Shown: positions 5,842 through 51,301 of the stretch, in pieces
Layout of the letters: the number at the start of each line of letters is the position of its first letter
Position numbering within the stretch: the first letter of the stretch is position 1
Origin: Carboxydothermus hydrogenoformans Z-2901
GTDB taxonomy: Bacteria; Bacillota; Z-2901; Carboxydothermales; Carboxydothermaceae
DNA length: 64,000 nt
Assembly: GCF_000012865.1 (NCBI RefSeq)
Contig: NC_007503.1
Coordinates: 124,001 to 188,000 of the forward strand
Direction of reading: 5' to 3'
Translations under genes and position numbers: made by a program
The notes under the pieces: model-generated
Database searches by the model: none
Told to the model about the DNA's origin: nothing
Seen by the model: only the letters and a program-made list of their open reading frames with translations

Positions 5842-5918
5842 TTATCCACAACAAAACCCCCGATTTTGGTAGTTATCAACAGAGTTATCCACAATATCAA
5901 CAATTTTGCTTTTCCACA
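5842..5918 (+). promoter_or_regulatory. Cluster of DnaA-box-like nonamers
   Basis: The spacer between comFC and csp holds two perfect TTATCCACA boxes (5842-5850 and 5885-5893). Near matches are TTATCAACA (5873-5881), ATATCAACA (5894-5902) and TTTTCCACA (5910-5918), all in one orientation in AT-rich DNA. They lie 40-120 bp upstream of the csp promoter. No dnaA or dnaN is nearby, so this is more likely a DnaA-binding regulatory or titration site than an origin. Confidence 0.6.
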
Positions 5919-6055: not shown

Positions 6056-6253
6056 ATGCAAGGCAAAGTTAAATGGTTTGATCCCAAAAAAGGGTACGGT
6101 TTCATTGAGAGAGAGGATGGCGGCGACGTATTTGTCCACTTCTCGGCCATCCAGGAAAAGGGATTTAAGACCCTCGAAGAAGGTCAAAGGGTGGAGTTTG
6201 AAATTGTGGAGGGTGCCCGCGGGCCACAAGCGGCAAATGTCGTAAAATTATAA
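6056..6253 (+). CDS. Cold-shock protein (CspA family)
   Basis: 65 residues, one cold-shock OB-fold domain. It starts [18 protein letters not shown] and contains both RNA-binding motifs: KGYGFIER (RNP1) and DVFVHF (RNP2). These proteins bind single-stranded RNA and DNA and melt RNA secondary structure. AAGGAGG at 6039-6045 precedes ATG 6056. The gene has its own promoter and terminator. A nearly identical copy lies at 6978-7175. Confidence 0.95.
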
Positions 6254-50050: not shown

Positions 50051-50329
50051 ATGGACGAGGCTACTTTGCATAAAGTAGAAATTTATGACCGCAAAACCGT
50101 TAAGCTTTCAGGAATAAAGCAGGTTTTAAGCTTTAATGACCAGGAGATCCTGGTTGAAAGTGTCCAGGGATTTGTGGTTCTTAAGGGAGAAAGCCTTTTT
50201 ATTACCGGACTGAACCTGGAGGCAGGAACTTTGATAGTTGAAGGGTTTTTAAAGGAATTTACCTATCCGGAAGAGGGTGTAAAGGCTAAAGAAAGGGGTA
50301 AGAAGGTTTGGGAGCGCCTATTTCGGTAG
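50051..50329 (+). CDS. yabP: Spore coat/cortex assembly protein YabP
   Basis: 92 residues, a strand-rich YabP/YqfC domain: HKVEIYDRKTVKLSGIKQVL, then ILVESVQGFVVLKGESLFIT and GLNLEAGTLIVEG. It is needed for proper sporulation in B. subtilis and always precedes yabQ. GGGGGG before ATG 50051. It overlaps yabQ by 22 bp. Confidence 0.93.
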   Translation: MDEATLHKVEIYDRKTVKLSGIKQVLSFNDQEILVESVQGFVVLKGESLFITGLNLEAGTLIVEGFLKEFTYPEEGVKAKERGKKVWERLFR

Positions 50330-50631
50330 CAGGACAAATTAGAGAAGTTATTTTGTTTTTGGTGGCCGTGGCCTTGGGTTTGACATTTTGCGGCCTTTAT
50401 TTTTTGGAAAACCTTATTTTAAAGCGAAAGTTTAGACGCAGGAAGAAATTTTTTCCCTATTTTGTAGCGGATATTCTTTATTTTACCGCAGTAGGAGGCT
50501 TAATTTTGGGGTATTTTCTCTTTTTCAGTCAGGGAGAGGTGAGGAGTTACGGCTTTTTGGGAATAATTACCGGAATAGTTTTATATTATTTTATTTTAAA
50601 TAAAAACACCAGTTCGAAAGGAAAAACGTAA
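50308..50631 (+). CDS. yabQ: Spore cortex membrane protein YabQ
   Basis: 107 residues with three membrane helices (about 10-30, 47-68, 80-97) and a basic LKRKFRRRKKF loop, matching YabQ, which is required for cortex formation. TTG 50308 follows GGGGTAAGAAGG. Overlaps yabP. Confidence 0.9.
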   Translation: MGAPISVAGQIREVILFLVAVALGLTFCGLYFLENLILKRKFRRRKKFFPYFVADILYFTAVGGLILGYFLFFSQGEVRSYGFLGIITGIVLYYFILNKNTSSKGKT

Positions 50632-50658
50632 ATTAGCACGAATAAATTTAGTAAGATT

Positions 50659-50722
50659 TTGTCCACATTTTGTCCATAACTTGTCCAAAGTTTGTCCACA
50701 ATTGTTAATAAACTGTGGATAA
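50659..50722. promoter_or_regulatory. 11-bp-phased array of DnaA-box-like nonamers
   Basis: TTGTCCACA (50659), TTGTCCATA (50670), TTGTCCAAA (50681) and TTGTCCACA (50692) start exactly 11 bp apart. A perfect inverted DnaA box TGTGGATAA starts 22 bp later at 50714. The array ends 22 bp before the ATG of the HTH gene. All sites would face one side of the helix. Confidence 0.7.
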
Positions 50723-50744
50723 GTTGTAAATAAGGTGAAGATAA

Positions 50745-50978
50745 ATGCAGATTGAAATTCGAGGGGCAGAAAAATTAAGCTTTCGCGAACGGCAAGTGGT
50801 AGTGCTAAAAGAAATGGGTTACACCAACGAACAGGTTGCCAAAAAATTAAAAATTAATGTGAGTTCCGTTGCCACCCTTTATAATCGTGCCAAAAGCAAA
50901 GGCTACCAGGTAGTGATAGTAATTCCAGGGGATCATCTGGGACTTTTTGATCCCGGGGATGAAGGGGAGGAAGAATAA
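50745..50978 (+). CDS. Small sigma-region-4-like HTH protein
   Basis: 77 residues. Residues about 10-55 form a region-4/LuxR-type helix-turn-helix: LSFRERQVVVLKEMGYTNEQ then VAKKLKINVSSVATLYNRAK. A short VVIVIPGDH strand and an acidic tail follow. No core-binding region is present, so it is a DNA-binding regulator and not a sigma factor. It is coupled to divIC (stop and start overlap by 1 bp) and lies downstream of the phased nonamer array, which could be its own operator or a DnaA site. ATG 50745 follows AAGGTGAAG. Confidence 0.75.
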   Translation: MQIEIRGAEKLSFRERQVVVLKEMGYTNEQVAKKLKINVSSVATLYNRAKSKGYQVVIVIPGDHLGLFDPGDEGEEE

Positions 50979-51301
50979 TGCCGCGGTATTATGCCGGTTA
51001 CAATAAAAAAAATAAGAAAAAAAACTTTTGGTCGGCGGTATTTTTGGCGTTTCTTTTATACATAATGGTGAGCTTTGGTTTTGAGGTTTACAAACTTTAC
51101 ATTATGCACCGGGAAGTTAAAGCTCTATCGGCAGAGGTTTATGAGCTAAAAGCGGATAATGAGAAGCTGTTAGAAGATATTAAGAGGCTAAAAAATAACT
51201 CGCACTTTGAAACTCGCGCCAGGGAGATGGGGTTTGTAAAACCTGGAGAAAAAGTAATTGTAATTGAAAAGAAGGGAAATAAAGATGCCAGCAGTGATTG
51301 A
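50978..51301 (+). CDS. divIC: Cell division protein DivIC/FtsB family
   Basis: 107 residues: basic N-terminus, one membrane helix (about 18-38), a coiled coil (about 45-75, HREVKALSAEVYELKADNEK) and a C-terminal FETRAREMGFVKPGEKV motif. It joins DivIB and FtsL in the septal complex. Position after yabQ and before spoIIE matches B. subtilis. Confidence 0.93.
   Translation: MPRYYAGYNKKNKKKNFWSAVFLAFLLYIMVSFGFEVYKLYIMHREVKALSAEVYELKADNEKLLEDIKRLKNNSHFETRAREMGFVKPGEKVIVIEKKGNKDASSD

Follow-up and report, generated by a model that had tools for sequence, protein, structure and literature searches.

A conserved array of 11-bp-phased units between yabQ and divIC is a probable operator of a small helix-turn-helix regulator

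Between the sporulation gene yabQ and the division gene divIC of Carboxydothermus hydrogenoformans, short repeats follow one another at a step of 11 bp, immediately upstream of a gene for a 77-residue helix-turn-helix (HTH) protein. The question raised by this locus is which protein reads them. A preliminary description took DnaA as the obvious candidate and named the HTH protein second. The window analysed here is a stretch of 64,000 nucleotides (G000:C1:124001-188000) of the source genome, which consists of one 2,401,520-bp contig. Comparison with relatives suggests that the array is most likely where the HTH protein would control its own gene and divIC. This unnamed, uncharacterised regulator is found in many spore formers and in over a third of the sampled genomes of the phylum, and sits between sporulation and division genes; the site that it probably binds, the promoter and a probable partial recognition code are given below. 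Among the papers searched, none links yabQ, divIC and DnaA.

The HTH gene and the array upstream of it

The four TTGTCCAnA nonamers previously reported at an 11-bp step were confirmed at positions 50659, 50670, 50681 and 50692. An inverted DnaA box said to follow at twice that step is also present (TTATCCACA on the minus strand, 50714-50722), but the 22-bp step mixes the starts of different motifs. These sites are real; the array to which they belong is larger, comprising seven in-phase units (50659-50734) that share a TGT core at 50660, 50671, 50682, 50693, 50703, 50714 and 50725, with steps of 11, 11, 11, 10, 11 and 11 bp. The last three units start at 50702 (TTGTTAATAA), 50713 (CTGTGGATAA) and 50724 (TTGTAAATAA). 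Unit 6 contains the inverted DnaA box, and the last unit ends at 50734, ten bases 5' of the HTH start codon at 50745. In all, the array holds one perfect DnaA box (50714) and two TTGTCCACA sequences. The unit is better written as (T/A)TGTnnAnAAn, CC after TGT being one variant only. Elsewhere in the 64-kb window, forward TTGTCCAnA occurs at only two sites, and in 60 third-order Markov windows no two such nonamers stood 11 bp apart.

Table 1. Positions of genes, putative promoter elements and array units in the window
Feature	Position	Strand	Remarks
yabQ, upstream gene	50308..50631	+	Pfam Spore_YabQ, E 2.6e-10; -35 element within its 3' end
-35 element, sigma-H-type promoter	50617..50625	+	AAAGGAAAA; AGGA at 50619
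-10 element, sigma-H-type promoter	50637..50645	+	GAAT at 50640
Units 1-4, TTGTCCAnA, 11-bp step	50659..50701	+	Same units in two other Carboxydothermus genomes
Units 5-7	50702..50734	+	TTGTTAATAAA, CTGTGGATAAG, TTGTAAATAAG; one 10-bp step, then 11-bp steps
Small HTH gene, 77 aa (beta-HHH-beta)	50745..50978	+	Proposed array reader; Pfam Sigma70_r4_2, E 6.3e-8
divIC, presumed co-transcribed with the HTH gene	50978..51301	+	Pfam DivIC, E 1e-13; 1-base overlap

Pfam matches placed the HTH gene between yabQ and divIC, at the positions given in the preliminary description. The AlphaFold model of the HTH protein (pLDDT 85) has a strand at residues 2-6, helices at 13-23, 28-35 and 39-51, and a strand at 55-59. 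The HTH is of the sigma70 region 4/LuxR type: PF08281 (Sigma70_r4_2) matched over its cut-off, PF00196 matched below its cut-off, and no curated family other than the general Sigma70_r4_2 was over cut-off. Comparison of the fold with GerE, NarL and SigF region 4 gave VIA-align Z scores of 6.5-7.1, for an arrangement that is a common one, and a Foldseek search returned no match below E 0.001. The predicted HTH fold is thus held in common with GerE, NarL-LuxR proteins and sigma region 4, and GerE is likewise a stand-alone HTH protein of spore formers; the present protein differs in its extra N- and C-terminal strands (MxIEIRG, EVVIVIPG) and matches them weakly in sequence. It was rejected as a sigma factor of the sigma-70 family, as only the region-4-like part matches within its 77 residues and no region 2 was matched. 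A phage origin was also rejected, with no phage record matched and no viral contig confirmed.

Conservation extends over the whole length of the HTH protein, with 24 invariant positions among 50 sequences. The protein is 97% identical in Carboxydothermus islandicus, the nearest named relative in the collections. A single-protein search at E 0.001 detected the gene in 35 of 61 relatives, about 29 of these being convincing homologues, and a profile search detected it in 156 of 398 genomes of the phylum. Relatives of the protein are encoded on 404 contig stretches.

Conservation of the 11-bp phase and its linkage to the HTH gene

The preliminary description had proposed to look for the 11-bp step in relatives, and had regarded relatives with the gene but no phased array as decisive against it. 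Exact phasing is kept upstream of the HTH gene, so the proposal survives this comparison. Across 194 distinct homologue loci, TGT-TGT pairs numbered 482 at 11 bp and about 10 at neighbouring distances. At least three in-phase TGT were present at 169 of the 194 loci (roughly 1 expected) and at 160 loci of a 185-locus set (about 1.3 expected). For 108 distinct upstream regions, 292 TGT pairs were counted at 11 bp, compared with 6 in shuffles, with further peaks at 22, 33, 44 and 55 bp; control DNA 150-300 bp upstream gave only 13 pairs at 11 bp. The repeat is directional, with 33 ACA pairs at 11 bp against the 292 TGT pairs. Chance or a compositional repeat was ruled out by the Markov windows, the shuffles and the phase counts across homologue loci. 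Mere close relatedness was also rejected, since the upstream regions fall into 159 dissimilar clusters and the array is present in 137 of the 159 representatives.

The consensus across loci is WTGTnnAnAAn, repeated at exactly 11 bp just upstream of the HTH gene; the count was anchored on TGT, and the weight of TGT itself is therefore biased upward. Dynamic programming over 185 arrays, in which steps of 10, 12 and 22 bp were also allowed and a preference for 11 bp was built in, assigned 632 of 674 steps to 11 bp and 26 to 12 bp. Along the array, the dinucleotide after TGT changes from AC or AG at the 5' end to CC in the middle and GG at the 3' end, and the GG units are inverted DnaA boxes. At one locus (L065, genome G124), about nine degenerate 11-bp units (TTGGGGTAACC, TTGGGATAAGC) extend the array, 150 bp upstream of the HTH gene, and look as if the unit had undergone tandem duplication.

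The array tracks the HTH gene and not its neighbourhood. divIC lies downstream of the HTH gene at 175 of 185 loci, and the array was kept at all nine loci that lack DivIC downstream and have enough sequence. In G049, G087 and G116, where kilobases separate yabQ from the HTH gene, and in G018, where the two are on different contigs, the array is still at the HTH gene. In genomes without the HTH gene, 10 of 11 yabQ-divIC junctions have no array. The one exception is G036, in which a sigma-H-type promoter and a phased array follow yabQ (L328) and the HTH gene was not detected in the genome; this array is perhaps a relic of an HTH gene, possibly lost recently. Two members of the same family, G077 and G112, do have the gene. 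No large regulon of similar arrays was found with a three-unit, zero-mismatch pattern in 61 genomes: it matched HTH promoters and oriC, and its other, scattered matches were about as frequent as those of the reversed control.

A sigma-H-type promoter and covariation with the recognition helix

The array is preceded in the window by AGGA-N17-GAAT, which agrees with the SigH motif AGGA-N17/18-GAAT (PMC12456013), and transcription would be expected to start near 50650. The distance from AGGA to GAAW is exactly 21 nt at 79 of 168 loci (0.6 expected) and 22 nt at 12 more, and a relaxed promoter pattern was present at 142 of 181 loci, compared with 3.6% in shuffles. A sigma-H gene is present in each of the eight genomes examined (the source genome and seven relatives). 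The first unit begins at a median of 10 bp after GAA, at times overlapping it, and the median gap between array end and start codon is 18 bp; from this position relative to promoter and start codon we infer repression rather than activation. The preliminary description had proposed a link between replication state and division or spore formation; the link to sporulation would rest better on the sigma-H-type promoter than on replication state.

In genomes without the HTH gene, a similar promoter motif, judged by eye, often precedes divIC. Gene and array may thus have arrived behind a promoter already in place, or they may have been lost. AGGA-N17-GAA(T/C) lies between yabQ and divIC at five such loci (L306, L312, L318, L323 and L329), which suggests that divIC itself is under sigma-H.

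Unit bases covary with residues of the HTH protein. Over 142 dereplicated loci, the strongest associations linked residue 47 with unit base 5 (z 13.2) and residue 40 with base 4 (z 13.1), and for base 3 residue 46 ranked first (z 7.6). These three residues lie in helix 39-51, the predicted recognition helix; the association of residue 31 with base 4 ranked third (z 9.6). These associations are confounded by shared ancestry, which limits the covariation seen with the recognition helix. In paired comparisons, p values were 1.2e-4 for residue 47 (H to other), 3.2e-4 for residue 40 and 0.04 for residue 46, which appears to support 47 and 40, and 46 weakly. Most control residues showed nothing, and 3 of about 30 control comparisons had p below 0.02. 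A family with Lys47 has TGTACC/TGTCCC units, with C at base 5, in three genera, possibly through a single evolutionary event.

Candidate readers of the array

The array is probably the operator of the downstream HTH protein, which would regulate its own gene within a sigma-H-driven operon with divIC; this reading, drawn from sequence comparison, ranks best. Both genes would be expressed from the sigma-H-type promoter as cells begin sporulation or enter stationary phase. The recognition helix of the HTH protein is predicted to read (T/A)TGTnnAnA units, whose 11-bp step is close to one turn of the DNA helix. The protein would bind these units cooperatively in head-to-tail order, covering the leader from the -10/start region almost to the ribosome-binding site. 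Once bound, it would shut the promoter off in a negative feedback, and DnaA may bind the 3' units too. The HTH protein appears the better candidate because the array follows its gene rather than yabQ or divIC, because 42 of the 185 arrays lack the DnaA consensus TTDTNCACA on either strand, and because unit bases covary with its helix. Several observations count against autoregulation. The covariation is subject to the effect of shared ancestry, the control results and the third-ranked residue 31 noted above. Many of the 3' units match the inverted DnaA box perfectly, beyond the specificity that the HTH protein alone seems to need; in G036 promoter and array are present although the HTH gene was not detected; and the only other four-unit array in Carboxydothermus sits at oriC.

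Were DnaA to act alone, a filament on 11-bp-spaced boxes would control the sigma-H promoter of the HTH gene and divIC. Division or sporulation would then depend on replication state, a situation resembling the control of sda by DnaA in B. subtilis. This reading seems quite improbable. Boxes matching TTATNCACA are present in 107 of the 185 arrays and TTRTCCACA in 126, rather than throughout the family, and adjacent boxes lie 2-3 bp apart (a step of 11-12 bp; 98 G-to-G steps of 11 bp and 19 of 12 bp), the spacing preferred by E. coli DnaA (PMC11317965). Arrays of equal step also occur at oriC, with at least three units in 8 of 29 genomes with the HTH gene and 6 of 30 without it; this lack of difference indicates that such arrays belong to DnaA, and they were rejected as a product of the HTH protein. 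The 5' units, however, are of the TGTA type and are not DnaA boxes, and in G027, G034 and G042 the arrays lack the DnaA consensus although oriC has TTATCCACA-type boxes. The array tracks the HTH gene, and covariation with the recognition helix of the HTH protein would not be expected of DnaA. As first choice DnaA is less well supported, but it stays a serious secondary candidate, since TTRTCCACA is so frequent and the sole other comparable Carboxydothermus array is at oriC: when a four-unit pattern was run with at most three mismatches against three Carboxydothermus genomes, it matched only the HTH promoter and oriC, and the control gave zero. The oriC array of the source genome, upstream of dnaA (G000:C1:2401373-2401436), shows about five in-phase units at the 11-bp step, among them TTGTAATAAG and ATATGCACAA.

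A composite operator ranks next and is possible, if unlikely. On a shared 11-bp lattice, the TGTA/TGTC units at the 5' end would be occupied by the HTH protein and the TGTGGATAA units at the 3' end by DnaA, and the two proteins would compete or cooperate. The consistent 5'-to-3' order of TGTA, TGTCC and TGTGG units, the presence of DnaA boxes at two thirds of loci and the looser 11/12-bp step, found mainly among G-type units (168 of 170 A-to-A steps are 11 bp), are consistent with it. Transitions between unit types nevertheless keep the strict 11-bp register that one protein would give (A-to-G, 47 of 50; C-to-G, 89 of 90), and some arrays have no DnaA boxes. It is very improbable that the units are tandem 0A boxes read by Spo0A~P: the 0A box consensus TGTCGAA (PMC5295017) has TGT in common with the unit and Spo0A acts at sporulation entry, but TGTCGAA occurs in only 5 of 185 arrays on either strand, none of them the window array, and Spo0A gives no reason for the linkage to the HTH gene.

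PhoB pho boxes are tandem 11-bp direct repeats at a promoter, bound head to tail. The proposed operator of the HTH protein would work alike, with a protein of another fold and motif and no receiver domain, and with arrays of up to nine units at or downstream of the -10 element. DnaA-box arrays, such as the low-affinity arrays and double boxes of E. coli oriC (PMC11317965, PMC4451416) and those of Carboxydothermus oriC, share a near-identical 3' unit (TGTGnATAA), the 11-12 bp step and cooperative binding, which is predicted for the HTH array. The HTH-leader arrays differ in that their core, common to every lineage, is TGTnnAnA and their units include TGTA and TGTC types, in that they track the HTH gene, and in that many lack the DnaA consensus. 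Should the overlap with DnaA boxes prove important, replication, division and sporulation would be directly linked in the many spore formers in which the control of DnaA during sporulation is little studied.

A more speculative and rather doubtful extension would make the HTH protein a filament-forming protein that is induced through sigma-H and reads the DnaA-box lattice. It would bind both its own promoter and the oriC array and block DnaA and re-initiation at sporulation entry, its level being set by the promoter lattice. In that role it would parallel the function of SirA, and that of Spo0A at oriC. Spo0A, likewise a regulator of sporulation, has a site at B. subtilis oriC that looks like DnaA boxes and overlaps them (PMC5295017); it is a different protein, and binding of the HTH protein at oriC is hypothetical.

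Elsewhere in the window, a cluster resembling DnaA boxes (5842-5918; two perfect TTATCCACA, one TTATCAACA and one TTTTCCACA) lies just upstream of a cold-shock-type gene starting at about 6056, one of two closely similar genes of this type, at 6056 and 6979, about 900 bp apart.
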